Shown one piece after another: positions 1 to 11,719 of a DNA stretch of 12,603 nt. The translations under genes were made by a program, and so were the position numbers. Source of the DNA: Pirellulaceae bacterium (GTDB taxonomy: Bacteria > Planctomycetota > Planctomycetia > Pirellulales > Pirellulaceae); contig JADLDX010001047.1 of NCBI GenBank assembly GCA_020846515.1, positions 1 to 12,603 of the forward strand, given 5' to 3'. Under the pieces are notes generated by a model, which was given only the letters and a program-made list of their open reading frames with translations, was not told the DNA's origin and ran no database searches. Each line of letters begins with the position of its first letter. Position 1 is the stretch's first letter.

Positions 1-3000
1 ACGAAACCGATTCCAACGTTGAAAACGCCTGGCGGTCAGCTCTGGTGGTAGGTCCCACAGACTATGCGAGCAAAGCCAAAATGTTGGCGGCTCAGATCGG
101 CCAACCGGCAGCCAATGTACCACTGGCCGAGCAGGGGATGTATTGGTCCGCTCCGAACATGCGCGCCAAGAAGGTGGCCTGGCTGTTGCCTGGTCAGGGT
201 TCGCAGTATCAACACATGCTGCATGACCTGGTGCTAGCCGAGCCGAGCGCGGTCGCTGCCTTGGCCGAGTGCAATGCGGCGTTGGCTGCGCTGGGGCAAC
301 CCACCTTCGAACAATTTGCCTGGAATCAAGAAGCGTCCCAGTTGGGCGCCGATGTATGGCAGACGCAAGCCGCCATGCTGATCAGTGACTATCTGCTAAT
401 GTCGGTCCTGCGGGCCGAAGGATATGCGGCCGATGTCGTGGCTGGCCACAGCTTTGGCGAATTCGCGGCGATGTTGGCTGCGGGTTGCTGGGATATTCGC
501 ACCGCGCTCACTGCGACCTGGCATCGTTGCCGCGCCATCGTCGACCATGTACCCGCTGCCTGCGGTATGCTCAGCATTCAGGCGGCTGCCGACGTTGTCC
601 AGCAGTTGATTCGCACCAGCCATTGCCAGGTCTCTATCTCACATCGCAACGCGCCACAGCAAACTGTGGTCGGTGGCCAGCAAGCCGCCGTGGCTCAGTT
701 CGCACAGATTGTTGACGACGAAGGCCTAGTCAGTCGTTTATTGGCGGTACCCACGGCCTTTCATACACCAGCTTTAACCGCTGCGCAATCACCACTGGCG
801 CAGGCTCTGCAAACGATCGCGATTGAGCCACCACGCACACCACTGCTCAGCAGCGTGCACAATCGCTATGTCGCCGAGCCGGCTGATATTCGTCAGGGGT
901 TGGTCACACAATTGGTGACACCTCTGGATTTTGTGGGACTGGTGGAACGCTTAATTGCCGATGGTGTCGAACTGGTCGTGGAAGTTGGTCCTCAACAAGT
1001 ACTCACGCGTTTAGTGCGACAGATTGCTGGTTCACGTTTAACCGTGTTATCAACCGATCATCCTAAACGGGGAGCCGCTTTTCAGTTGTTATCGACCAGA
1101 GCTGGCTTGGATGTCATGCTCGCTAAGCCCCGCACCGAACTGATACCGAGAGTTGTTCTGGCATCATCATCAGCAGCAGGGGTTTCAGCAACAGATACGA
1201 TGACTGCGCAGCCCATGGCTTTGAGTCATTCAGCCCCAAAGATTATCGAGACATTGCATTTCGACGCCACGGCCGTGCGTCGTGAACGCATGCGGGCATC
1301 GGCCAGTCGCGATGGAAAACCTGGCAGTGTAACTCAACCGCCTGTCGCGATCTCCGCGCCAGTCGCTGTGCATTTTGATGCCTCTCAAACTCGACGCGAC
1401 CGCAATCGTCAGAGCACGCAACTGCCTCAGCATGTGTCGCCTGCCCCAGCGCCTGCATCGCTACCTTCTCCCGCGCAAGTTTTGTCACCGATTGTTGCAA
1501 CGTCGACGACATCGCAGCCGGGAACTAACCCTCCCGCTGCGGAGCAGTCGGAAGGTCGACCAGCGTTAGCTAGGTCGGGGAGTGGGCAACCAATACGCAG
1601 TGAACATGCGCAGAGTCCTAGCGCGGCATCGGCAGTTGATGCACGCAAGCGTGAGCAGGTTATCGAGACATTCTTGATTGATTTTGTGGTTGAGCAAACC
1701 GGCTATCCGGCTGAGATCATTGAACTGGATTGGGATATCGAAGCTGACTTGGGCATCGACAGCATCAAGAAGGCTCAACTGTTCGGCGAGCTGCGCGAGT
1801 TCTTCGACTTGGATTCGTTGCAAAACGCAAGCACGGTTGCGGGTGAGAAACCTATCAGCTTTTCGCTCGACCGCTTCAAGACGCTGCGCGACATCGTGCA
1901 TTTGTTGGTCACCCTGCCCGGCAAGGGCGATTGGTTGGATCAGCAAACGCGAAGAACGGACTTACCCGCAGACGATTATTCTGCTGATGTATCGACCGCC
2001 CTCCCCTTGTCAACATCCACCGTGTTCCCGACTGAGCCAGCTGCGCAACCACCGGTACAGTCACCAATATCAGCATCAACACCAGCACTGCCATCCACTG
2101 TGCCAGTTGGACTCGTGTCCAAGAGTGAGCGTGGAGATGCTGTACTGGATGGTCAACCGGCAGTTATTGCTCAGCCCCACAGCGTAGCTCAGCCCTACAG
2201 CGCAGCTCAGTCTGACAGCGCAGCTCAGTCTGACAGCGCAGCTCAGTCTGACAGGGCTGCTCAGATGCAGCAGTTCTTGATCGACTTTGTGGTCGAACAG
2301 ACGGGCTACCCACCTGAGATCGTGGAGATGGATGCTGACCTCGAGGCCGACTTGGGTATCGACAGTATCAAGAAGGCGCAACTGTTTGGTGAACTGCGTG
2401 AGATGTTCACCTTCCCGATGTCGGCGACGGCTGATAACCGTTTTTCGCTGAGCGATTTTCCTACGCTTCGTTCGGTACTTGAACTCCTGCTGAGCGCGCA
2501 GACAACCACGACGTCCAGTCTGCCAGCCAGCAGTGCGGACCGGCCAGCGGCTCCTGAGTCATCGCCAGCTTTGGCACATACGCCGGCTATGCCCGCTATG
2601 CCAGCCGATCGCCCCACAGCCATCAAGCCAACTGCCGTAGCTAACCCACCGCAAGTAACCAATACGTCGGTAGTAGCTAACCTAGCCGAAGCCGTACCGC
2701 AACTTCCTTCGGGCCGACCATCGCTTGCTCAGCAGCCAACACAACATTCTCAGCCCGCGCAACATTTTCAGTCAACGCATGCGCCGCAGTTTCGATCGCT
2801 TGTACCCATGGTGATCAGCGACGACCAGGCATCCAGTCCCTGTTGTGTACCGCTGGCTTGGCTATCGAGTGAGCATGACGGTAACGCGTTCGAAGCAGGA
2901 CGAGGCTATAACGACGCAGTCTTCGCAAACTTGCAAGCCCTGGTAGGGCGGCCACAGCGGTCCAGCGATGAACTGCGAGTGCATTACAATGGCCAGCGCG

Positions 3001-6000
3001 ATATGGTCCAGACTGCTATCTCGCACCTGGCTAGCGCCACCGGTGCGGCCGATGTCAGCTTGCTGGCTCTAGACAGTTGCATGCTGGCACAGGCCGCGTG
3101 GCAACCCATGCGCACTGACGAGACACTGGCGGGATCGTCTGCTGGGGCACGCGCTGCCGGATCAGCTGGGGCGTTACGACCCATCGTGCAGTATCACGTG
3201 CCAGCCTGGCTGGTTGGCAGCGGTGGTCAACCCATTGCAATCCACCTGCACTCTGCCCATGGTTCGTCGGGCCCCCAACTGCAATTGCTAACGCCAGGTT
3301 GCGTGCATGCAAGCGTCCTCTTGACCAGTCATGGTCACCTGTTGTCGGCAGGTTGTTTGAGTAATACATCGGTAAGTCAGTCGGTCGATGTCCATGCACC
3401 GCTACAGTTGGTTACCTGGTTGCATGCACAGAATTCGCCAGATGTAGGTTTGAATCAGTTCGAAAAGTCGGCTCGTCAATTGCGATTGGTGGGCGATTGG
3501 TGGGCCATGTGTGTTGATCTGCATACAGCCCAACGCGTGCTGGTGGAATGGCGCGACGGTGTCGTCGTGATTGAGAAAGGTTGGTTGCCCGCGGGCTCCA
3601 GCCCAGACCTATCCCAAGGCGAATGCTGCGCTGCATTGTGCTTGGATGCTGACCGCGGGGAACTGTTGCTCCAGGCGCGACAGCGTCCGTTCCCGTTCAA
3701 CTGCACGGAGACGCGTATTCCGCTGGGCAATCTACAGAGTTGGGCTGCGCCATCTACGGGTGACAAGTCAACGCAAGTTCAATCAGCTTCGCATAGCTCA
3801 GCTTCGCATAAATCAACTTTCGTCGAGTCGACAATTGATAAAACAGAAACCGCCACGCCGGCTGTTGATTCGCCTGCGAAGACGCCGGCTAGTTCACTAA
3901 CCAAACGCTACATCTTGCGCATGGCGCCTGCACCTCAGCGACCGGTCGTTGGCCGGCGACCTGTGTGGTCGGGTGCGGCGCTGATCATCGGCGACAATCC
4001 GATCGCGACACAACTTGAGGCGCGACTGCGCAGCGCCAAGGTGCCCGTGACCCGTTGGGCTGGAACAGAAGAACCTGACGCATTAGCCAAACGATTTGAT
4101 GAATTGGTAGCGCACCAATCGGTACGTCATCTGTTCTTGACCACGCCCTGTGATGCCGAAGCGATTTCGACTCTCGATTCTGCGGCCTGGCAACGCCGAC
4201 GCAATGTGGGATTGATGAGCACGTTCTGGTTGTGCCAACGCTGGCATGCGCACGTTTGCGCCAGTGGATGGGTGGACGATGCCAGTCTCGTGGCCGTGAC
4301 CTCACTGGGTGGCAAGTTCGGGACCGAAGGACAGGTTCCATCAATCGAAGGTGGTGCGCTGACAGGTTTACTGAAAGCCATCTTGATCGAATGTTGGGTC
4401 CAAGGTTTGCGTACATTCCCGATCAAAGTTATCGATACCTGTCAACAAGATTCGCCTGCTCAGATTGCCAATAATATTTGGCATGAGTTGGCCGTGCCTA
4501 GTGCCGATATCGAAGTCGCTTACTGTCAAGGTGAACGGAACGTCATTCGTGCTATTGCGAAACCTGTCTCGGCCGAAGAGAGCACTTCAGCGAGATTGAC
4601 CCCAGGTGGGACATGGGTCTGCACAGGTGGAGCGCGTGGTATCACGGCGCAAGTCGTCGAACAACTTGGCAAGATGTACGGATTCAAACTGCATCTGTTG
4701 GGTACACAACCACTGCCACAGATCAATTCCAGCTGGCGAGAACTGGACAGTTCGGGTCTGCGCGAATTGAAGGCTGAGGTAATGACTAGCGCACGTGCCG
4801 CTGGTAAGAATCCTGTGCACACCTGGCAAGACACCGAAAAAGCACTCGAAATTGATAGCAATCTGCGGCGTTTTCGCGAATTGGGTATTGAAGTCCATTA
4901 TCATGCCTGCGACGTGAGCGATCGCGAACAAGTGCACTCGGTATTGCAGCGCGTGCGGGAAATTTCAGGACCGATTCGCGGCGTCTTACATGGAGCGGGT
5001 ATCGGCAAAGATGCCCGATTCGATCGCAAGCAGCCGGAGAAAGTTCGCCAATGTATTGGCGCTAAAGTAGATGGCGCTTGGGCGTTAATCGAAGCCACTT
5101 GGCAAGATCCACTGGAGGCCTTTATAGGTTTCGGTTCTATCAGCGGACGGTTCGGGGCCAACGGGCATGCCGACTATTCGCTGGCCAATGATATGTTATG
5201 CAAGTTGATGGATTGGCTGCGCGAAGCTCGACCTGAGGTGCATGCCATCGGCTTTCATTGGCATGCTTGGGATGATTTTGGCATGGCCACCAAACCCGAT
5301 ACGCGATTGGCGTTGGAGATGGTCGATATGCAATTCATGCCCGCCGCTGAAGGTGTTGAACATCTTATGCGGGAGCTGCGCAGTCCGAGTCGAGAGAGCG
5401 AAGTCTTGATCACCGATGATCGCTATTGTCGCCTGTTCTGTACACCACAGGACCATGTCGACAAGGCCGATCTTCCCCGCGCAGATCAGCCGCCAACTAC
5501 ACCGCTTATCGTCAGCAGTAGCAATGCGGCTTCCGGTTCCCAGAAACTGCACATGGTTCAGATGGATCCAGTGCAAGATCCGTTTCTGAAGGAACATCGA
5601 CTGGATGATCGGCCCCTGATGCCGATCGTCATTGGGGCTGAATTGTTGCTGGAGTCGGCACGTGCTCATTTGGGACACAGCCAGTCGCTAAAGTTGCGAG
5701 ATGTTCGCGCCGTACAAGGCTTACGTTTTTATGGTGATGCTGCACAGTCTGTGCGGTTGACGACTGAGCTGCGTGGTGATGGCTTAGTGGTGTGTCGTCT
5801 GCTCAGTGATTTCTATGCACGCGATGGACGCTTGGTCCAACGCGACCGATTGAATTTGACTGGTCTGGTAGAAGTTGTCGATCGCCCAGGTGATCGTCCA
5901 AATTCAGACACGACGCATATCGAATTACCCTTGGGTGTGACTTGGCAACGGCCTGTTTATCCTGCTCTGGGCAGCAAGTTTTACGTAGGTGTGCCGCTAC

Positions 6001-6422
6001 AACGTCTGCGTGGTTTTGTGTTGACAGAAGAGGGCATCGTCGGCCGTATTACGGCGCCGACGCTGGGCGAGTTAGCCGGTCCATCCAGAGATGTACGGGG
6101 ATGGCAGTTGCCCAGTTCGGCCGTGGACGCTTGTTTGTTTGTTACTGGCATACTTGCCTGGCAAACGGTGGCACCTGGTTCTGCTTTACCAACTGGGTTT
6201 GGTGAAATTGAAATTGGTCGCTTGCCCGATGCGGGTGAAGCCTGCGAAGTGCATGTGCGATTGCGAGGCGCCTCGCCAGGCAAGGCTGCGTTTGACTTTA
6301 CCCTGTACGGCGTTGACAAGTCTATTTTGGTGAACGTGCGCGATTACAGTGTTGTCTGGTTGATGGATTCAGGCAGTACAAGTGTGTCGGCGGCGACTGC
6401 GGCCACTTCGGTCACCGGTTGA
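1..6422 (+). CDS. Type I iterative PKS / Pfa-Hgl-like lipid synthase, 3' part (AT-ACP-ACP-[C45-like?]-KR-DH)
   Basis: Large multidomain synthase that would extend a chain on its own carrier domains and reduce and dehydrate it. The frame is open from base 3, so the GTG at 45 is not a start; the ketosynthase should lie upstream. Residues below count that GTG as 1. The acyltransferase (about 40-345) has PGQGSQY at 49, GHSFGE with nucleophile Ser136, and His240 in FHTPAL. Two carrier domains share LGIDSIKKAQLF, with phosphopantetheine sites at Ser573 and Ser774. Residues 920-1235 are an unusual domain, possibly C45-like. A structural ketoreductase half (about 1285-1500) precedes the catalytic half, which has TGGARGIT at 1527, Lys1674, Ser1698 and Tyr1711 in the usual spacing. 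The C-terminal double hotdog resembles a dehydratase, with His1851 in EHRLDDRPLMP and Asp2028 in VDACLF. No enoyl reductase or thioesterase is seen. The order resembles PfaA plus a dehydratase. The stop overlaps the next gene by 4 bases. Family is confident; product is unknown. Confidence 0.94.
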   Translation, partial: ETDSNVENAWRSALVVGPTDYASKAKMLAAQIGQPAANVPLAEQGMYWSAPNMRAKKVAWLLPGQGSQYQHMLHDLVLAEPSAVAALAECNAALAALGQPTFEQFAWNQEASQLGADVWQTQAAMLISDYLLMSVLRAEGYAADVVAGHSFGEFAAMLAAGCWDIRTALTATWHRCRAIVDHVPAACGMLSIQAAADVVQQLIRTSHCQVSISHRNAPQQTVVGGQQAAVAQFAQIVDDEGLVSRLLAVPTAFHTPALTAAQSPLAQALQTIAIEPPRTPLLSSVHNRYVAEPADIRQGLVTQLVTPLDFVGLVERLIADGVELVVEVGPQQVLTRLVRQIAGSRLTVLSTDHPKRGAAFQLLSTRAGLDVMLAKPRTELIPRVVLASSSAAGVSATDTMTAQPMALSHSAPKIIETLHFDATAVRRERMRASASRDGKPGSVTQPPVAISAPVAVHFDASQTRRDRNRQSTQLPQHVSPAPAPASLPSPAQVLSPIVATSTTSQPGTNPPAAEQSEGRPALARSGSGQPIRSEHAQSPSAASAVDARKREQVIETFLIDFVVEQTGYPAEIIELDWDIEADLGIDSIKKAQLFGELREFFDLDSLQNASTVAGEKPISFSLDRFKTLRDIVHLLVTLPGKGDWLDQQTRRTDLPADDYSADVSTALPLSTSTVFPTEPAAQPPVQSPISASTPALPSTVPVGLVSKSERGDAVLDGQPAVIAQPHSVAQPYSAAQSDSAAQSDSAAQSDRAAQMQQFLIDFVVEQTGYPPEIVEMDADLEADLGIDSIKKAQLFGELREMFTFPMSATADNRFSLSDFPTLRSVLELLLSAQTTTTSSLPASSADRPAAPESSPALAHTPAMPAMPADRPTAIKPTAVANPPQVTNTSVVANLAEAVPQLPSGRPSLAQQPTQHSQPAQHFQSTHAPQFRSLVPMVISDDQASSPCCVPLAWLSSEHDGNAFEAGRGYNDAVFANLQALVGRPQRSSDELRVHYNGQRDMVQTAISHLASATGAADVSLLALDSCMLAQAAWQPMRTDETLAGSSAGARAAGSAGALRPIVQYHVPAWLVGSGGQPIAIHLHSAHGSSGPQLQLLTPGCVHASVLLTSHGHLLSAGCLSNTSVSQSVDVHAPLQLVTWLHAQNSPDVGLNQFEKSARQLRLVGDWWAMCVDLHTAQRVLVEWRDGVVVIEKGWLPAGSSPDLSQGECCAALCLDADRGELLLQARQRPFPFNCTETRIPLGNLQSWAAPSTGDKSTQVQSASHSSASHKSTFVESTIDKTETATPAVDSPAKTPASSLTKRYILRMAPAPQRPVVGRRPVWSGAALIIGDNPIATQLEARLRSAKVPVTRWAGTEEPDALAKRFDELVAHQSVRHLFLTTPCDAEAISTLDSAAWQRRRNVGLMSTFWLCQRWHAHVCASGWVDDASLVAVTSLGGKFGTEGQVPSIEGGALTGLLKAILIECWVQGLRTFPIKVIDTCQQDSPAQIANNIWHELAVPSADIEVAYCQGERNVIRAIAKPVSAEESTSARLTPGGTWVCTGGARGITAQVVEQLGKMYGFKLHLLGTQPLPQINSSWRELDSSGLRELKAEVMTSARAAGKNPVHTWQDTEKALEIDSNLRRFRELGIEVHYHACDVSDREQVHSVLQRVREISGPIRGVLHGAGIGKDARFDRKQPEKVRQCIGAKVDGAWALIEATWQDPLEAFIGFGSISGRFGANGHADYSLANDMLCKLMDWLREARPEVHAIGFHWHAWDDFGMATKPDTRLALEMVDMQFMPAAEGVEHLMRELRSPSRESEVLITDDRYCRLFCTPQDHVDKADLPRADQPPTTPLIVSSSNAASGSQKLHMVQMDPVQDPFLKEHRLDDRPLMPIVIGAELLLESARAHLGHSQSLKLRDVRAVQGLRFYGDAAQSVRLTTELRGDGLVVCRLLSDFYARDGRLVQRDRLNLTGLVEVVDRPGDRPNSDTTHIELPLGVTWQRPVYPALGSKFYVGVPLQRLRGFVLTEEGIVGRITAPTLGELAGPSRDVRGWQLPSSAVDACLFVTGILAWQTVAPGSALPTGFGEIEIGRLPDAGEACEVHVRLRGASPGKAAFDFTLYGVDKSILVNVRDYSVVWLMDSGSTSVSAATAATSVTG
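1257..1409 (+). repeat. Duplicated HFDAxxxRR(D/E)RxR motif in the AT-ACP linker
   Basis: Two copies of a 13-residue motif lie in an otherwise low-complexity linker: HFDATAVRRERMR at 1257-1295 and HFDASQTRRDRNR at 1371-1409. Shared residues are HFDA, the Arg-Arg pair, the acidic residue, and the following Arg-x-Arg. The codons differ at many positions (cat ttc gac gcc against cat ttt gat gcc), so the protein motif looks conserved rather than freshly copied at the DNA level. A basic, probably helical segment repeated in a flexible linker would suit a docking or interaction site. No function is known to me. Confidence 0.6.
2169..2258 (+). repeat. 18-bp tandem repeat, 5 copies, in linker between the two ACP domains
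   Basis: Five consecutive 18-base units start at 2169, 2187, 2205, 2223 and 2241. The third and fourth units are identical (gctcagtctgacagcgca), and the array ends in a partial gctcag. In frame they encode the hexapeptides AQPHSV, AQPYSA, AQSDSA, AQSDSA and AQSDRA, just upstream of the second carrier domain. The near-identity suggests recent expansion by replication slippage. The array extends a flexible linker without breaking the frame. Confidence 0.9.
2733..2786 (+). repeat. 18-bp degenerate tandem repeat, 3 copies, after the second ACP
   Basis: Three 18-base units at 2733, 2751 and 2769 encode QPTQHS, QPAQHF and QSTHAP. The first two are clearly related in DNA; the third is looser. They lie in the Pro/Gln/Ala-rich linker between the second carrier domain and the unusual middle domain. 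Confidence 0.6.
2808..3760 (+). other. Unusual PKS internal domain, possible degenerate C45 / Ntn-hydrolase-like module
   Basis: Residues about 920-1235 of the synthase (counting from base 45), between the second carrier domain and the ketoreductase, match none of the standard PKS domains. The layout recalls peptidase C45 / acyl-CoA:6-aminopenicillanate acyltransferase proteins. A helical N-terminal part (around GRGYNDAVFANLQALVGR) comes first. A beta-rich section follows, with QLLTPGCVHASVLLTSHGHL and then the stretch RQLRLVGDWWAMCVDL leading into VLVEWRDGVVVIEKG, which resembles the 'G-G-N-W ... D ... VE' end of that family. The N-terminal Cys nucleophile expected in a C45 enzyme is not obvious: the matching place reads VQYHVPAWLVGSGGQP, with no Cys. 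If the match is right, the domain may be non-catalytic or use another residue. The assignment is from memory of the family pattern and is weak. Confidence 0.35.
3768..3842 (+). repeat. 15-bp degenerate tandem repeat, about 5 copies, before the ketoreductase
   Basis: Units begin at 3768, 3783, 3798, 3813 and 3828 and encode STQVQ, SASHS, SASHK, STFVE and STIDK. The second and third share tcagcttcgcata exactly; the others share mainly the opening Ser codon and the pentad spacing. They form the linker between the unusual middle domain and the ketoreductase region. Confidence 0.6.
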
Positions 6423-7603
6423 ACAAACCATTCGAGGCCTCAGCCGGACCCACTATGTTTGTTACGCCCACCAGTTTGCCTCATCTACTTCGACCCGGTG
6501 ACTACGCTACGGCCGAGTGGTATGCGCAGGAAATTCAATTGATGCGCCGTACCTGGCATGTCGTGGGTACAACGTGTGAGTTGGCTAGGGACGGCGATTT
6601 TCTGACGACAGACATTACGGGCGTGGCGGTACAAATTCGCAATTTTGGTGGCCAGCTAAAGGCCTTGTCCAATGTCTGTTCTCACCGGCATTGCCTGATA
6701 TCCTCGCAAGCGGCTGGTAACTCACCGCGCATGCGCTGTCAGTATCATGGTTGGGAGTTTCAAGCCGATGGCCGAACGGGTCGGATACCTGAACCAAAGA
6801 ACTTTGTGCCCATCGAGCGCGAAAAGTTGTGCTTACCCAATTACGCATTGGCCGTTGTGGGCCAATTGGTATTTGTGAATCTGTCTACCAACCCGCCGCC
6901 CATACAAGAGTTTCTGGGCGCAGACTTTCATGATTTTCTGGAGTCGCGTTTTGGCACTCCTTGGCATATGTCGCTCAAGTGGGCACCGAGCTATCCGGCG
7001 AATTGGAAAGTACCTATCGAAAATTCGCTCGAAGCCTATCATATACCGGCGGTGCATCCGAAGACTTTCAAGGTGGATCCAGGCGAAGAACGCTCGGAGC
7101 ATCTCTTGTTGCCTCATCGCACCGCGTTTTTTGCTCGCCTGCCCTTTGGTGCTCATTCGGGCATCGATGCCTGGTTTCAAAAGTTCGAAGGCCAAGTGGT
7201 GCGCTGGTTGGGACATCCAAACACTCGCGACTATTCACAGCATCATGTCTTTCCTAATCTATTGTTTTCGTTCACCGATGCGATGAGTTTGTGCCATTGC
7301 ATCATGCCGGTCAGTCCAGATAGTTCCCGCGCTGTGGTGCGGCAGTTCGGCAGACCGCCAGCCGGTAACGGTGTGCTCAGCCGCACGCTGGGAAAAAGCC
7401 TGTCGAGGACTTGGGGGCGTCTGACTGCCGCCATCAATCGACATATTCTCAAGGAGGATCTAACCATGTTTCGTTCTATTCAACAGGGTTTAGAACGCAG
7501 TCCTCATCGAGGTGTCTTGGGACGTTGCGAAGAACGGTTGCATGCGTTTCAACATTATCTCTTATCCAACATTCCCTCCGAACCTCAAGGCCCAGCACTA
7601 TGA
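6419..7603 (+). CDS. Rieske [2Fe-2S] non-heme iron ring-hydroxylating-type oxygenase, alpha subunit
   Basis: An O2-dependent oxygenase of the ring-hydroxylating alpha-subunit family, which passes electrons from a Rieske cluster to a mononuclear iron. The N-terminal Rieske domain has Cys87-x-His89, then 17 residues, then Cys107-x2-His110 (CSHRH and CQYHGW). The catalytic domain has His208 and His213 in ENSLEAYHIPAVH and the likely carboxylate ligand Asp347 in LKEDLTMFRSIQQGLE, the usual 2-His-1-carboxylate set. At 394 residues it is full length. No beta subunit, ferredoxin or reductase lies in the window, so electrons must come from elsewhere. The start is uncertain: the TTG at 6419 overlaps the synthase stop by 4 bases without a clear ribosome site, while an ATG at 6455 (residue 13) would give a more typical N-terminus. 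Its place between synthase and enoyl reductase suggests it hydroxylates or desaturates the lipid product; the substrate is unknown. Confidence 0.92.
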   Translation: MNKPFEASAGPTMFVTPTSLPHLLRPGDYATAEWYAQEIQLMRRTWHVVGTTCELARDGDFLTTDITGVAVQIRNFGGQLKALSNVCSHRHCLISSQAAGNSPRMRCQYHGWEFQADGRTGRIPEPKNFVPIEREKLCLPNYALAVVGQLVFVNLSTNPPPIQEFLGADFHDFLESRFGTPWHMSLKWAPSYPANWKVPIENSLEAYHIPAVHPKTFKVDPGEERSEHLLLPHRTAFFARLPFGAHSGIDAWFQKFEGQVVRWLGHPNTRDYSQHHVFPNLLFSFTDAMSLCHCIMPVSPDSSRAVVRQFGRPPAGNGVLSRTLGKSLSRTWGRLTAAINRHILKEDLTMFRSIQQGLERSPHRGVLGRCEERLHAFQHYLLSNIPSEPQGPAL

Positions 7604-8463
7604 TCGATTTGACAAACCAAGTGGCTTTAGTCACTGGTGGTTCGCGCGGCATCGGTCGCGCCGTCGCACTGCGGTTGGCTCAGGCAGGCGCGGATGTGAT
7701 CGTCAACTACGTGACCAGTCAATCTGCCGCCAAGGAAGTCGCGGACCAGATTGCGGCACTCGGACGGCGAACGGCGACGATTAAAGCCGATGTCAGCGAA
7801 CCGGAAGATATCGCCAGCATGCTTGAATTTGTTGGAAATAGCTTTGGTAAGTTGGATATCTTGGTCAGTAACGCTGCCTCAGGCGGCTTTCGAAGCTTGA
7901 TGTCGGCCACCCCTCGTCACTTCGACGCTACAATGAAGACCAACGTGCAAGCGCTCATGCTGCTGACTCAAGCCGCCTTGCCGCTCATGCAACAAGACAG
8001 CCAAACCCCAAGTAATCACACCCCAAACAATCAAACATCAGGTAGCCAAGCATCAGGTAGCCAAACCTCGGGTAGCTCGCCGTCCAGTGGTCGGCCGGCC
8101 GCTCGACGCAAGATCATTGCCATGTCCAGTCATGGATCGCATCGCGCTTTACCCGCTTATGGTTTGATCGGAGCATCCAAAGCGGCTCTGGAGAGTTTGG
8201 CACGACACCTGGCGTATGAATTGGGCAATCAAGGTATCAATGTGAATGTTGTTCTGGCCGGATTAGTGGCCAGCGATTCAACGCGTAATTTTCCTGAGAG
8301 CCAACGTATTTTCGATGCCATCGCCCAACGACGGTTGGTTAGTGGTCGCGAATTGTTGGCGGAAGACGTCGCCAATGCTGTGTTGTATCTGGCAAGTCCG
8401 CTAAGCGATTTGGTTCAGGGACAAGTGTTGACGATCGACGGCGGCGAGGCACTGCATGGCTGA
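7600..8463 (+). CDS. SDR-family oxidoreductase, FabL-type enoyl-ACP reductase-like
   Basis: A 287-residue short-chain dehydrogenase/reductase. The N-terminal cofactor motif is TGGSRGIG, followed by a SNAAS motif. The active site reads YGLIGASKAAL: Tyr187 and Lys194 are separated by six residues, as in enoyl-ACP reductases of the FabL/FabI group, rather than by the three of ordinary FabG ketoreductases. The preceding SSHGSHRALPAY and the C-terminal GQVLTIDGGEALHG also resemble Bacillus FabL from memory. It probably reduces the enoyl-thioester made by the KR and DH of the synthase, which has no enoyl reductase of its own. The frame stays open upstream to about 7411, but the ATG at 7600 overlaps the Rieske stop (ATGA), has AAGG nine bases upstream, and puts the nucleotide-binding strand at the normal distance. 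An insert of about 30 Ser/Thr/Gln/Gly-rich residues precedes the active-site strand. A plain SDR acting on another substrate is the alternative. Confidence 0.85.
   Translation: MIDLTNQVALVTGGSRGIGRAVALRLAQAGADVIVNYVTSQSAAKEVADQIAALGRRTATIKADVSEPEDIASMLEFVGNSFGKLDILVSNAASGGFRSLMSATPRHFDATMKTNVQALMLLTQAALPLMQQDSQTPSNHTPNNQTSGSQASGSQTSGSSPSSGRPAARRKIIAMSSHGSHRALPAYGLIGASKAALESLARHLAYELGNQGINVNVVLAGLVASDSTRNFPESQRIFDAIAQRRLVSGRELLAEDVANAVLYLASPLSDLVQGQVLTIDGGEALHG
8002..8076 (+). repeat. 15-bp tandem repeat, 5 copies, inside the SDR/FabL-like gene
   Basis: Five 15-base units at 8002, 8017, 8032, 8047 and 8062 encode QTPSN, HTPNN, QTSGS, QASGS and QTSGS (residues 135-159). The last three share about 12 of 15 bases. 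The array sits in the surface region between the LPLMQQ helix and the IIAMSS strand, where FabL and FabG proteins have only a short turn. It is in frame and leaves the catalytic residues intact. Confidence 0.85.
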
Positions 8464-9937
8464 TCGAGTCGTAAACGATATACCTGCCGTTGCTTTTACG
8501 CAAAACGATGTTAGTCCACGCAATCGCGTTGATGATACCGTTCCGGCCGGTTTGTTTCCGCTCGTGTTGACGCCCTTTGAACAGTACTTGATGCTGGACG
8601 ATTCACCTCAGCATCCCATGACGGCCTTCATGCAGGTTACGCTCGCAACACCTCTGAATGTCGAGTTCCTCGAAGAGGCTGTCTATCGCGCCTGTGTCCG
8701 CAATCCTTTATATGCCTCGCGAGTCACGCAGGCCACCAAGGCTTGGCAATGGCACTATGATGCAGCCTTTCGACCCAAGATCCGCTCGATCGAGTTGGAA
8801 CCGCCCGTAGTCGATGGCTTCATCGTGCCCATTGACCTGACCCAAGAGCCGGGCATTCGAGTCTGGTATCATCGCCAGGCGGACGATACCTGGCGGCTGC
8901 TGTTCCAGTTTCATCATGCCTGCGCCGATGGCATTGGCATGCGTCGCTTTGTGATCGATACATTGATCTGTTACGCGCGCTTCTGCATACCCGAAGATGA
9001 TCCACTGCAAGCGAACTTACGGCTCGATCGCCTGGATCATGCCAGATTGCTCGAGCGTGGTTCGATCAACCACTTGGTCGATACGCCGGCAGCGGTTCCG
9101 CTAACGCTCAAACAACGTTTATGGAACACCTATTACTTTCTATTTCTGCCGCCAGCACCGTTGCGTGGCACGCTGCGTCCAACGCCAAATCGACTGCGGG
9201 CAACTAGTCTGCGGTCTGTGCCGCCGGACCAGCCCACCTTGGTGAAGACTCTCAGCCTGGAAGAATCGACGGCGATTCTAGAACGCGCTCGATTGGCCGA
9301 AGTCGGCTTGAATGATCTAGGGCTGGCCCTCCTGTTTCACCAATGTCGACTGTGGCACGAACAACATAGTACGCGTGGGACCAACCGCCGCATTCGATTG
9401 TTGATGCCCTACGACATTCGTACCAAAGAGGATCTGCGATTATCGGCCGCCAATCGCTTGAGTTATGCGTTTCTCGGAAGAAAGCATCGCGAGTGTCATG
9501 ATTGGCCGAAACTGCTGGCCAGCGTGCAAGCTGAAACTCAGCAAATCAAAGACACTCGCGTTTACGTAGATTTTCTACAAGGTCTGTCGATGTGTCAGCG
9601 CCGCCCACGCCTGTTTCGATGGGTGCTTGGCCGTATGCGGCATGTGGCTACTGCGGTGTTCACTTACGGTGGCGATGCCAACCGAGGTGTGACTCGCGTA
9701 TTTGCCACTCAAGAATGTGGGGCCCTGCGCGTTGGCGATGCTTTGATGCTGGATGGTGCCGCCGCGCCGCCCGTACGCCTCAATACGAACATCGCGATCG
9801 GGTTCTGCATCAGCCGAGATCGCATCTCCATGTCGCTCAGTTGGAGTCGACATGCACTATCGATCGAAGAAGCCCAATTGTTCTTCGATTCCTATTTGAC
9901 GTCATGGAAGAACTGGGCACAGAATAACCGTCCCTGA
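8456..9937 (+). CDS. Condensation/WS-DGAT-like acyltransferase (HHxxxDG)
   Basis: A 493-residue protein of the CoA-dependent acyltransferase superfamily, which includes NRPS condensation domains, wax-ester synthases and PapA-type acyltransferases. The signature HHACADG gives His153, the catalytic His154, Asp158 and Gly159, at the usual depth after an N-terminal half that opens with LTPFEQYLMLDD. The C-terminal half has NDLGLALLFHQCRLW and ends in a beta-rich NIAIGFCISRDRISMSLSW section typical of the fold. A full DFGWG motif is not seen. Its ATG lies inside the end of the SDR gene (8-base overlap) with GAGG six bases upstream, so the two are probably translationally coupled. As the last gene of the operon, and with no thioesterase in the synthase, it may release the chain by transferring it to an alcohol, amine or glycolipid acceptor. 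The superfamily is clear; donor and acceptor are unknown. Confidence 0.85.
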   Translation: MADRVVNDIPAVAFTQNDVSPRNRVDDTVPAGLFPLVLTPFEQYLMLDDSPQHPMTAFMQVTLATPLNVEFLEEAVYRACVRNPLYASRVTQATKAWQWHYDAAFRPKIRSIELEPPVVDGFIVPIDLTQEPGIRVWYHRQADDTWRLLFQFHHACADGIGMRRFVIDTLICYARFCIPEDDPLQANLRLDRLDHARLLERGSINHLVDTPAAVPLTLKQRLWNTYYFLFLPPAPLRGTLRPTPNRLRATSLRSVPPDQPTLVKTLSLEESTAILERARLAEVGLNDLGLALLFHQCRLWHEQHSTRGTNRRIRLLMPYDIRTKEDLRLSAANRLSYAFLGRKHRECHDWPKLLASVQAETQQIKDTRVYVDFLQGLSMCQRRPRLFRWVLGRMRHVATAVFTYGGDANRGVTRVFATQECGALRVGDALMLDGAAAPPVRLNTNIAIGFCISRDRISMSLSWSRHALSIEEAQLFFDSYLTSWKNWAQNNRP

Positions 9938-9974: not shown

Positions 9975-10424
9975 TCATTTGACCAGGTACGTTTGATCGC
10001 CATGGTCTATCACCACACTGCTGGCCGTAAAGTCGATTACGCGAAAGGTTTGTCCGTCGATGGATATACCATTGCGCGAATCGGCGAGTTTGTCCCGGCG
10101 CAAGGGAACGAAATATCTTCTCTCACCCAACTCAACGATAGCACTGCCATGGTCGATATCGCTTAATACGATGGCCCTCAGTCGCAAACTAGCCATAGCG
10201 TTAGAACCAGAAGACTTAGCATTCGACGATTTAGTATTCGAAGGCTGAGCATCTGAAGACTTAGGATCTGGTGCCGCGACAGTTGGCACAGTGTTGGCCA
10301 GCAATTGCTTGATCGCTGGGCTGGGCACGGTTGGATCATGAACGACGCTGGTTGGCTGAGGCTCCTGCCCTAAGCTGACGCAGGTGAACAGCAACCAGGT
10401 CAGACTGGTCATGCGGATCTTCAT
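9975..10424 (-). CDS. Small exported GspC/PilP-like protein of the secretion/pilus operon
   Basis: A 149-residue protein with an N-terminal hydrophobic segment (about residues 6-19, SLTWLLFTCVSLG) that should act as signal peptide or membrane anchor. There is no good lipobox, because Thr precedes the Cys. A short DPTVPSPAIKQLL segment and a Ser/Lys/Asn repeat linker follow. The C-terminal 70 residues (LRLRAIVLSD, RRYFVPLRRDKL, FRVIDFTASSVVI) look like the small beta domain of GspC/PilP proteins, which link the inner-membrane platform to the outer-membrane channel. The start is well supported: GGAGG lies nine bases before the ATG, and that ATG overlaps the gspF stop (ATGA). GspC normally has a clear transmembrane segment and is longer, so this is a minimal or divergent version. 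The assignment rests on domain shape and operon position; the exact family name is uncertain. Confidence 0.65.
   Translation of the reverse strand: MKIRMTSLTWLLFTCVSLGQEPQPTSVVHDPTVPSPAIKQLLANTVPTVAAPDPKSSDAQPSNTKSSNAKSSGSNAMASLRLRAIVLSDIDHGSAIVELGERRYFVPLRRDKLADSRNGISIDGQTFRVIDFTASSVVIDHGDQTYLVK
10210..10269 (-). repeat. 15-bp tandem repeat, 4 copies, in the GspC/PilP-like gene
   Basis: Four 15-base units on the + strand start at 10210, 10225, 10240 and 10255 (for example gaagacttagcattc and gaagacttaggatct). Read on the coding strand they give DPKSS, DAQPS, NTKSS and NAKSS, the flexible linker between the membrane-proximal part and the C-terminal beta domain. Confidence 0.8.
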
Positions 10425-11719
10425 CGAATATTGCCTCCAGCGCTCATCAGCGCCATAAAGAAAGCCATGTAGACGTAACCAACAATGCCACCGGCCACCA
10501 CAATAATGGCTGGTTCGATCAGCAAGCTCAGTCGTTTGACTTTGGCTTGCAGTTCACTCTCGCAGAAACTGGCGACTTCTTCGAGCGACGTTTCAAGCTG
10601 GCCTGTGCGCTCAGCGACGTCCAGCATACTAGAGAGCATGGGCACGTAGCCGGGTTGAGTGGCCAATGCGTCCGTCAGGCCTTCCCCGCGGAGGACCGCC
10701 TCGCGGGCTCCTTCAACATATTTAGCCAACTGTTGATTGCCCTGCAGCCGCTGCGCGATCGTCAACGATTCCACCAGTTTAAGACCGCTGCGGACCATGA
10801 CCGCTAGCGAACTGGCCAAGGTCGCGGTGCCGGACAACCTGAGGATGCTGCCGATCATAGGCAATTGCAACAGCAGGCGATCGATCACCAGTCGAGCCGG
10901 CGGCCACTGGGTGAGGACGATCAGGCCACCCAAGAGTGATACAACCACCACCAGTAACGTTTGACCGTATGTTTGTAGCCACAGTGAAAGATCGACCAAT
11001 GACTGAGTCATGGCAGGCAACTTGCGTCCCATGGCCTCGAGAAACTTCTGCAATTGAGGGATAACGGCGAAGATCAAGTAGAAGGCGATACAGACCGCGG
11101 CTGTAGCGACGACCGCAGGATAAGCCAAGGCGACGCGTACGGTATTGATGGAACTGCGCCGCTGCGCCAGGTGATGGGCCGCTTGCTCCAGCACATGGCT
11201 AAGATTGCCAGATGCTTCGCCTACGCCGACCAACTGCACGGCGATCTGTGGGAATACATTGGTACACGCCAATGCATCGCTCAGCGAATTGCCGGCATGT
11301 ACTGATTCAATGACTTGCTGTAGATGATATTTCAAGGCCGCCGACGAGCTTTGGTGGGCAACGGCGTGTAACGCGCTAATCAGATCCAGGCCACTGCGCA
11401 GCATCATCGCTAATTGACGCAAGGCGGTTTCGATGGCACGCTGGCTCGGCCGCAGCCAGCGCGACAACTGCAGCGACTGTGGATTGGCAACACGTTTTGT
11501 GTAGTTCGCCGAAGGGCTGATCGCCTGTTCATTCGGCGAACTCTGGAGGAACTTCGATCGTGTCGGAGCTTGCCATGAACGCTCTTGAATGGAAAAGCTG
11601 ATCAACGACAAACCAGACCTTTGCAGCATGCCCCGCAATGTTTCCGGTGAATCCGCCGTTTGAGTACCGCGGGCGATTGATCCCGTTTGATTGCGAGCGA
11701 TATACGAAAATTGTTTCAT
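10421..11719 (-). CDS. gspF: Type II secretion / type IV pilus inner-membrane platform protein
   Basis: A 432-residue GspF/PilC-family protein, the polytopic inner-membrane platform that couples the assembly ATPase to pseudopilin or pilin assembly. The N-terminus MKQFSYIARNQTGSIARG is typical of the family. Two T2SSF repeats lie at about 98-221 and 300-423; both contain the family motif around MLRSGL/MVRSGL, and each has a conserved VGEASG or VAERTG element. Three hydrophobic segments, about 196-221, 253-272 and 399-424, give the expected topology. A Ser/Gln-rich insert at about 45-85 lengthens the linker after the N-terminal domain. The start lies 5 bases after the gspE stop, and the stop overlaps the next gene by 4 bases, so the three form one operon. 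Whether the machine is a secretion system or a pilus cannot be settled without the pilin and secretin genes. Confidence 0.93.
   Translation of the reverse strand: MKQFSYIARNQTGSIARGTQTADSPETLRGMLQRSGLSLISFSIQERSWQAPTRSKFLQSSPNEQAISPSANYTKRVANPQSLQLSRWLRPSQRAIETALRQLAMMLRSGLDLISALHAVAHQSSSAALKYHLQQVIESVHAGNSLSDALACTNVFPQIAVQLVGVGEASGNLSHVLEQAAHHLAQRRSSINTVRVALAYPAVVATAAVCIAFYLIFAVIPQLQKFLEAMGRKLPAMTQSLVDLSLWLQTYGQTLLVVVVSLLGGLIVLTQWPPARLVIDRLLLQLPMIGSILRLSGTATLASSLAVMVRSGLKLVESLTIAQRLQGNQQLAKYVEGAREAVLRGEGLTDALATQPGYVPMLSSMLDVAERTGQLETSLEEVASFCESELQAKVKRLSLLIEPAIIVVAGGIVGYVYMAFFMALMSAGGNIR
10434..10438 (-). promoter_or_regulatory. Strong Shine-Dalgarno (GGAGG) of the GspC/PilP-like gene
   Basis: GGAGG on the - strand ends nine bases before the ATG at 10424 and lies inside the last codons of gspF. 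It supports that start and suggests independent as well as coupled translation. Confidence 0.75.

Follow-up and report, generated by a model that had tools for sequence, protein, structure and literature searches.

A planctomycete Pfa-like synthase operon with a FabL-like reductase, a Rieske oxygenase and a free-standing acyltransferase: candidate genes for an oxygenated long-chain ester

What does a Pfa-like synthase make when its partners are an iron oxygenase, a stand-alone reductase and a free-standing acyltransferase? The locus that raises this question lies in the window, by which we mean the whole analysed stretch of 12,603 bases, which is the entire contig C1047 of an assembly of 1089 contigs. 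All four reading frames of the original prediction are present where expected on the plus strand: a Pfa-like synthase open at the contig start (3..6422; its C-terminal 2139 aa, AT-ACP-ACP-(stretch)-KR-DH by Pfam and NCBIfam), a Rieske non-haem iron oxygenase of the alpha-only type (6455..7603, or from an alternative TTG start at 6419), a FabL-like SDR proposed to act as enoyl reductase in trans (7600..8463) and a free-standing acyltransferase of predicted condensation fold (8456..9937). The further claim that all four genes overlap holds in part. The Rieske and SDR genes share four bases (ATGA) and the SDR and acyltransferase genes eight, whereas a four-base overlap of synthase and Rieske genes requires the TTG start at 6419. 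In the related locus L040, the first start codon of the Rieske frame aligns with ATG 6455 of the window, whose use leaves a 32-base gap, and in L039 the start is ambiguous between the two codons. Since the L040 start points to the ATG rather than the TTG, only two of the three overlaps are secure.

Is this arrangement kept in other genomes? Because acyltransferases of this family are widespread (77 of 147 genomes) and often found away from any synthase match (for example in L048, L050 and L054), the SDR and the synthase were chosen as anchors. A search of 147 related genomes gave 25 SDR matches, each no more than 2.4 kb from a Pfa-like synthase; among 392 genomes of the phylum, the 13 matches of at least 388 bits were without exception within 2.2 kb of one, with the next score at 278. 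The 392 genomes were drawn from a larger group, up to six and up to two candidates per genome were scored in the two phylum searches, and four genomes (G000, G032, G056 and G101) matched in both samples. Viewed from the synthase, 24 of the 26 strong-synthase genomes among the 147 have the SDR with it (the other two being cut by contig ends), as do 13 of 14 genomes of the phylum sample; G359 has its synthase on a 399-kb contig with no SDR match among the candidates scored. An SDR-only search gave 80 loci, of which 29 were left out: their SDR scores did not exceed 295 bits, and all of them lacked a synthase match. Of the 51 loci kept, 42 have a synthase just upstream. Seven of the other nine have less than 2.7 kb of upstream sequence and two have a synthase no further than about 6 kb away on the other side. 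Counting identical SDR proteins once gave 69 loci, of which L039 to L072 were partly picked via synthase or acyltransferase matches; the two complete linkage counts and the 51 SDR-only loci are free of that choice.

The exact four-gene order occurs in seven of the 69 loci. The arrangement is shared by other families and genera of the taxonomic order, which argues that the layout is more than chance. The view of a Pfa-like synthase with unusual partners is supported. Small genes missing from beside the synthase in related genomes had been named as the observation that would speak against a shared job; the counts do not show this. The SDR is nearly always with the synthase, as given above; the Rieske gene is optional and stands between the two in 22 of the 69 loci, and the acyltransferase is adjacent in 14. 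The core of the operon is thus a conserved unit in many planctomycetes.

Since the window is a whole contig, its synthase comes without the KS-CLF half and any upstream gene is out of sight. Relatives fill this gap: a thioester reductase lies upstream of the synthase in G003, in G101 and, as the end of the gene only, in G007. G025, a single-contig genome that carries the set, has its thioester reductase and synthase fused. Within the genome of the window itself, contig C484 carries a thioester reductase and then a KS in which the contig ends; this KS shares 66% identity with the G007 KS, compared with 37% for the next KS in the genome, and about 1.5 kb, the CLF, is absent from both contigs. 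We infer that C484 runs into C1047. The set is consequently not complete as four genes, as first supposed, but is preceded by a thioester reductase. A 2136-aa KS frame on contig C945 was also considered as the missing half and was rejected as a different PKS (37% identity).

Complete homologues of the synthase measure 2832 aa (L039) and 2983 aa (L040), and relatives carry KS-CLF-AT-ACP-ACP-KR-DH in one chain. The KS of the Pfa-like synthase scores 259 bits, and a second KS-like copy, lacking the Cys motif, follows it as chain length factor in L039, L040 and L047. The KS-CLF of L039 matches 6RIW in one stretch (query 18-739), a structure described as the KS-CLF of the Moritella PUFA synthase (PMC9138089). 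The half that the window retains begins with an AT domain (180..1028; GHSFGE motif; Pfam Acyl_transf_1, 106 bits) and tandem ACPs, each with the motif LGIDSIKKAQ (the first at 1749..1778, placed by motif; the second at 2274..2429, by Pfam PP-binding at 38.5 bits and by motif). A KR (4608..5276) and a double-hotdog DH (5502..6362, its DH part by Pfam) follow, all on the plus strand. Ser, Tyr and Asn of the KR are invariant in six of six sequences, and so are His and Asp of the DH; we take these to be the usual residues of the two sites. Between ACP and KR, a stretch defined by position (2775..3788, plus strand) has no domain assigned. At that place the L047 homologue carries a C45 autoproteolytic acyltransferase domain (138.3 bits, cut-off 85), with weaker matches in L061 (84.6 bits) and L066 (45.3 bits). 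A C45 domain was rejected for the window, where, as in L039 and L040, no match was obtained and profile comparison returned a probability of 0.1.

In NCBIfam, the synthase matches PfaA (TIGR02813) best, below the cut-off of 1010.1 bits both as the window fragment (362.6) and as the whole homologue of L039 (645.6); the larger sister type L061 passes it at 1024.2 bits. Pfam found no FabA-like dehydratase/isomerase in the complete synthases from L039 and L040, and no ER domain in the synthase of the window or of these two loci. A PfaD search (TIGR02814, E 1e-5) gave no match in five genomes with the cluster, of which G025 is a single contig and the others comprise 40 to 1089 contigs.

Which enzyme, then, would reduce the enoyl intermediate? 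Pfam places the protein in the SDR family. The best solved relative of the SDR profile is FabL (3OIC, 242 bits), ahead of the best FabG at 165 bits. The Tyr-x6-Lys motif, at 8158-8181 in the window, is present in all 67 SDR rows complete at the site (the remaining two of 69 end before it), and the position of the FabG Tyr is occupied by I, V or L. The FabL-like assignment of the original prediction therefore stands. Together with the missing PfaD in the five cluster-bearing genomes, the FabL-type motif suggests that the SDR is probably a trans enoyl reductase. If it were instead a second ketoreductase, as Zmn13 is annotated, the synthase would yield unsaturated or hydroxylated chains. We regard this as quite improbable, as the synthase has a KR of its own with the usual residues, neither ER domain nor PfaD was found, and both the catalytic motif and the wide lead of FabL over FabG oppose it. 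On the other hand, the SDR falls short of the NCBIfam FabL equivalog cut-off (256.8 vs 328 bits), and a 255-aa 3-oxoacyl-ACP reductase lies directly 3′ of the pfa-like genes of zeamine, according to the accessible part of PMC3547906.

The Rieske protein matches the Pfam families for the Rieske domain and the ring-hydroxylating alpha subunit. Its best solved match is CntA, a carnitine monooxygenase (91 bits; Glu, His and His aligned), and its best NCBIfam match, GbcA, reaches 87.7 bits against a cut-off of 670. Placing what we take to be the CntA ligands on the CntA-Rieske alignment, we find all eight metal-site positions (Cys-His/Cys-His cluster site and 2-His-1-carboxylate iron site) present in the window and kept in 22 of 22 linked copies. 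No electron-transfer partner is found among the four genes of the window. A Rieske gene adjoins the SDR, on the SDR strand, in 24 of 69 loci (22 upstream, two behind); as most SDR loci have none adjoining, oxidation is not essential to the pathway in general.

This optional presence, for which the SDR tree implies about 12 gains or losses, and the small amine on which CntA works favour a passenger role for the Rieske enzyme, or action on the acceptor instead of the chain, leaving synthase, SDR, thioester reductase and acyltransferase as the core. Such a role is rather unlikely, for the gene occupies one place in distant clades with every metal-site residue kept, and distances between Rieske proteins track those of the synthase (Spearman 0.65) and the SDR (0.77), values reached in none of 1000 permutations that left kinship uncontrolled; synthase and SDR distances agree less with each other (0.45). 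All 14 Rieske-bearing genomes among the 147 belong to the 26 strong-synthase genomes. Moreover, only three unlinked copies were detected (E 1e-40, 147 genomes), in G101, G065 and G001, each a genome whose cluster lacks the Rieske gene; ignoring kinship, the chance of all three falling in strong-synthase genomes without a linked copy (15/136) is about 0.001. The eight frames beside these unlinked genes bear names unrelated to lipid synthesis: methyltransferase, carbonic anhydrase, YbjN, efflux protein, nucleoside hydrolase, PfkB kinase, RTX repeats and lectin-like.

The last gene had been described as an HHxxxDG acyltransferase, and this is supported: HHACADG stands at 8912-8932 in the window, and HHxxxD is found in 19 of 19 acyltransferases, with the final G in 18. 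The Pfam Condensation match stays below its cut-off (24.5 vs 30.6 bits), and the best free-standing solved match is PapA5 (8S6L, E 3.2e-15). PapA5 transfers mycobacterial PKS chains straight from its PKS to a hydroxyl. NRPS proteins head the match list, slightly above PapA5 against the acyltransferase profile in scores summed over two condensation domains, and this keeps amide formation in play, whereby the chain would be joined to an amine (amino acid, polyamine or long-chain amine) rather than to a hydroxyl. Sister clusters L062, L066 and L096 encode, in order, a thioester reductase, a class III aminotransferase, an AMP-ligase and the acyltransferase (by Pfam on L066 and by profiles), a gene set suited to making and then acylating an amine, and the accessible text on zeamine and fabclavine proposes that their free condensation proteins form an amide (PMC3547906, PMC9113149). 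An amide is nevertheless doubtful for the window type: neither the L066-derived aminotransferase profile nor the ligase profile matched in the window, L039, L040, L043, L044 or L047 (several of them cut by contig ends), and PapA5 is the best free-standing match.

From the gene set, its conservation and the catalytic residues, we infer a pathway with its reactions, chain length, acceptor and product. The window would hold the 3′ part of a five-gene operon for thioester reductase, synthase, Rieske oxygenase, trans enoyl reductase and acyltransferase. Working iteratively, the synthase may build up a long acyl chain out of malonyl units while holding it on its own ACPs; its KR and DH would act in cis and the FabL-like SDR, replacing PfaD, would reduce the enoyl in trans to give a mostly saturated chain. 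The Rieske enzyme, served by a reductase encoded elsewhere, may oxygenate the chain, most likely to a hydroxyl, before or after release. Two exits can be envisaged: by the first, the thioester reductase would release one chain in the form of an aldehyde or alcohol; by the second, the condensation-fold protein would pass an ACP-bound chain directly to a hydroxyl, or less likely an amine, much as PapA5 does. Such a pathway would yield an oxygenated long-chain ester. The chemistry of the original prediction (reduce, oxidise, esterify or amidate) would fit these parts. Judged from sequence, we hold the reading as a whole tentatively, at somewhat less than even confidence. A more specific version, in which FabL-type SDR and single-chain synthase dispense with PfaD, the Rieske enzyme hydroxylates the chain (possibly while ACP-bound) and two chains made by the operon, one supplied as alcohol via the thioester reductase and the other via the PapA5-like enzyme, are linked into a hydroxylated two-chain envelope ester forming a planctomycete lipid class, is unlikely.

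Pfa-like synthases without known products are common: in the accessible text of a 2023 survey, more than 92% of 1,170 metagenomic PUFA-type KS domains fall outside those with known products (PMC10308959). Here, the parts are of known kinds, and no description of the combination was found. The accessible portions of the open-licence literature yielded none of the gene set or its product in planctomycetes, and a term search of the available text of a 2025 review gave no match (PMC12078418). What distinguishes this operon is that it is a well-bounded, recurring variant of Planctomycetota with a clear parts list, so that removing genes and comparing lipids by mass spectrometry should make its product traceable. 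Should the reading be true, the toolkit of Pfa-like synthases gains a FabL-type enoyl reductase as well as a Rieske oxygenase, and the operon indicates a specific lipid in planctomycetes, whose cell envelopes are unusual.

How does the operon compare with known systems? PapA5 and mycocerosic acid synthase of mycobacterial PDIM likewise pair a free-standing HHxxxDG acyltransferase with an iterative PKS, but the synthase belongs to another family, and we know of no Rieske enzyme or FabL-like SDR there. FabL of Bacillus subtilis (3OIC) shares the Tyr-x6-Lys motif, whereas the window SDR, below the NCBIfam cut-off, is tied to a Pfa-like synthase; CntA and GbcA, the closest solved and NCBIfam matches of the Rieske enzyme, differ in genomic setting, and the GbcA score lies far below its cut-off. 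Pfa synthases for omega-3 PUFA and the 'secondary lipid synthases' share KS, CLF, AT, tandem ACPs, KR and DH, but the window type unites KS-CLF and AT-ACP-KR-DH in one chain, without FabA-like DH or PfaD match. Planctomycete types I and J were described in 2011 (PMC3098273), and Kothea flammea is reported to have one hglE-KS cluster. That no characterised pathway has exactly this set was the original view; we too found no such description, yet zeamine and fabclavine come near it. According to the accessible text on both (PMC3547906, PMC9113149), their clusters (zmn10-14 and zmn19; fclC-G and fclL) share a PUFA-like KS-CLF synthase, an SDR, a thioester reductase and a free-standing condensation protein, but use several Pfa-type proteins, a PfaD enoyl reductase fused to an aminotransferase, and NRPS modules, with no Rieske enzyme named in that text. 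The window type, by comparison, has a single synthase chain, no PfaD match, a FabL-like SDR and a Rieske oxygenase.

What does the operon hold, and how tightly are its genes joined? The window is the whole of contig C1047 (12,603 bases), one of 1089 contigs in a 6.48-Mb planctomycete assembly whose completeness is about 81%. Its forward strand carries the open-ended synthase frame (3–6422; Pfam AT, ACP, KR and DH_N), the Rieske oxygenase gene (6455, or from a TTG at 6419, to 7603; Rieske and Ring_hydroxyl_A), the SDR (7600–8463; SDR families) and the acyltransferase (8456–9937; a sub-threshold Condensation match). Downstream of the latter, a T2SS F-type gene and an ATPase-like frame (the frame named from sequence only) lie on the reverse strand. 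The original prediction had all four genes overlapping. This is borne out at the Rieske/SDR (4 bases, 7600–7603) and SDR/acyltransferase junctions (8 bases, 8456–8463), but synthase and Rieske overlap only if TTG 6419 is the Rieske start, and the first Rieske start codon of L040, a locus in genome G003, aligns with the window's ATG 6455, not with that TTG. Part of the linker between the two ACPs (2169–2264) is encoded by an 18-base repeat present in about five copies.

The SDR is an almost fixed partner of the synthase. Among 147 relatives, 26 match the KR-DH part of the synthase strongly (E 4.5e-115 or better; a threshold of 1e-30 gives 37). The SDR profile at 1e-55 gave 25 matches in 24 genomes, and by coordinates none of the 25 is further than 2.4 kb from a synthase match. 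G058 has two loci, and at one of them the closer match is a weaker piece from the C-terminus of the same synthase frame. Two strong-synthase genomes, G013 and G075, have no SDR match, and the contigs of both end there. A phylum sample of 392 genomes, with thresholds of 1e-55 for the SDR and 1e-100 for the synthase, yielded 49 SDR matches in 48 genomes. Thirteen of these reach at least 388 bits, each with a synthase match within 2.2 kb, and 13 of the 14 genomes with a synthase match carry such an SDR; the remaining 36 matches (at most 278 bits) come from genomes in which the synthase search gave nothing at 1e-100. G359 is a true exception, since its strong synthase match (locus L169, 1510–3966) sits in a 399-kb contig, C36, and no SDR match was found in that genome. 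The synthase lies immediately upstream in 42 of 51 loci found via the SDR alone, and in 60 of 69 non-redundant loci including those from the relatives; of the other nine, seven have upstream sequence shorter than 2.7 kb, and L083 and L113 carry a synthase on the other side, no more than about 6 kb away.

The other two small genes are kept beside the synthase less regularly than the SDR. A Rieske gene lies between synthase and SDR in 22 of the 69 loci, counting L110 with its truncated synthase, and follows the SDR in two; an acyltransferase comes after the SDR in 19 (14 times at 400 bases or less). The full four-gene order of synthase, Rieske, SDR and acyltransferase occurs in seven loci: the window, L039, L040, L056, L057, L076 and L121. 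On the SDR tree these seven are spread over separate branches; L056 and L057 are near-copies of each other. By these counts, the acyltransferase is a frequent partner, and the Rieske gene is optional and recurrent, with 12 gains or losses on the SDR tree against a shuffled mean of 18.7. Other arrangements occur: L080 and L127 have two tandem Rieske genes ahead of the SDR; L093, L105, L109, L114, L117 and L119 carry an opposite-strand Rieske gene behind the thioester reductase, accompanied in L105, L109, L114 and L117 by a second one ahead of the SDR; and in L112 (Bacterium isolate SZAS-1), whose host may lie outside the phylum, synthase and SDR are followed by a Rieske gene at 505 bits.

At 1e-40, the Rieske gene was found in 14 of the 147 relatives, each of which also belongs to the 26 with a strong synthase match. 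Eleven of the 14 have it in the cluster: nine between synthase and SDR, G013 next to the synthase at a contig end, and G048 behind the SDR. The clusters of G101, G065 and G001 have no Rieske gene; in these near relatives, stand-alone kin of the cluster gene (L162–L164) lie amid unrelated genes. Ten further synthase genomes have it in the cluster (four) or elsewhere (two), or gave no match at 1e-40 (four). All eight metal-site positions are conserved in 22 of 22 linked copies. Rieske distances correlate with those of the synthase (Spearman 0.65, 21 loci) and the SDR (0.77), 0 of 1000 permutations being as high in either case with host kinship ignored; for synthase and SDR the value is 0.45. The closest solved relative, carnitine monooxygenase CntA (91 bits), is too distant to infer a substrate.

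Which step might the SDR catalyze? Among solved relatives it matches B. subtilis FabL (3OIC) at 242 bits and the best FabG at 165, and it scores below the NCBIfam FabL cut-off. Tyr-x6-Lys is present in all 67 SDR rows that extend to the motif, and the FabG tyrosine position is I, V or L. The usual catalytic residues of the synthase KR and DH are invariant in six of six sequences, no ER domain was found in the synthase, and PfaD had no match in five genomes with the cluster, one of them single-contig. Together, this FabL-like character, the missing PfaD match and a synthase with KR and DH but no ER make a trans enoyl reductase the best reading of the SDR from sequence. The window's SDR also bears an insert of about 35 residues (7999–8103), rich in S, T, Q, N and G, ahead of the active-site tyrosine; it stems partly from 15-base repeats (8005–8076) and is missing in six aligned relatives.

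Complete synthase homologues of 2832 aa (L039, in G007) and 2983 aa (L040) both start with a KS. Aligning the KS against the remainder of its own protein revealed a second KS-like stretch behind it (42.7 bits in L039, 31.5 in L040, at most 133 in sister types); in L039, L040 and L047 (in G101), this stretch lacks the cysteine motif of a KS. Residues 1–949 of L039 match 6RIW, reported to be the KS-CLF didomain of the PUFA synthase from Moritella marina (PMC9138089), in one continuous stretch (18–739). The full-length enzyme therefore has the order KS-CLF-AT-ACP-ACP-KR-DH. Contig C484 (4167 bases) of the window's own genome terminates within a KS sharing 65.9% identity with the G007 KS (417 residues) and 62% with the G003 KS; the genome's next KS reaches 37%. 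Directly 5′ of the C484 KS lies a thioester-reductase-like gene (513 aa; NAD_binding_4, 145 bits). Its counterparts precede the synthase by 31 bases in G003 (525 aa) and occupy the equivalent place in L047 (527 aa), and the G007 contig starts with the last 163 residues of a thioester reductase (37% identity to that of G003). The KS identities and this shared position suggest a five-gene operon in the order thioester reductase, synthase, Rieske, SDR, acyltransferase, of which about 1.5 kb would lie outside both contigs. In L056, L057 and L058, the thioester reductase is fused onto the synthase N-terminus. In the L047 synthase, ACP and KR are separated by a C45 autoproteolytic acyltransferase domain (10412–11554, reverse strand; 138 bits), and weaker ones occur within the Pfa-like synthases of L061 and L066; if this domain self-cleaves, the megasynthase would be split. 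The window's genome has at least two further KS-bearing PKS loci, on contigs C945 (L001) and C749 (L007, L008), the latter with five KS matches within 5.5 kb.

HHxxxD is present in all 19 linked acyltransferases, whose profile matches NRPS condensation domains; the best free-standing match is PapA5 (8S6L, E 3.2e-15; 1Q9J, 1e-11), and wax ester synthase (7NXG) matches more weakly (9.5e-7). We infer each reaction of the proposed pathway as follows: the chain would grow iteratively on the synthase ACPs, be completely reduced with the SDR acting in trans, be oxygenated by the Rieske enzyme, and be released through two exits, the thioester reductase giving an aldehyde or alcohol and the acyltransferase an ester or, less likely, an amide. 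Three longer sister clusters (L062, L066, L096) comprise synthase, phosphopantetheinyl transferase, Rieske, SDR, thioester reductase, class III aminotransferase, AMP-ligase and acyltransferase. Inserted between thioester reductase and acyltransferase, the aminotransferase and ligase would shift the shared plan towards amides, and these clusters would form a zeamine-like amide set in Planctomycetota.

The cluster differs from the Pfa system proper in three respects: its synthase falls below the PfaA cut-off, Pfam shows no FabA-like DH in the complete homologues L039 and L040, and five genomes with the cluster gave no PfaD match. A 2011 typing of Pfa-like clusters in planctomycetes included types I and J, and its type J, PfaD with a PfaA homologue, differs from the window's set (PMC3098273). 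Titles, abstract openings and selected passages of the open-licence literature yielded no description of this gene set. The closest partner logic is that of zeamine and fabclavine: these likewise combine PUFA-like synthase genes with an SDR, a thioester reductase and a free-standing condensation protein, but have PfaD fused to an aminotransferase, and NRPS modules (PMC3547906, PMC9113149). We place the cluster among the Pfa-like secondary lipid clusters, as an apparently novel variant.
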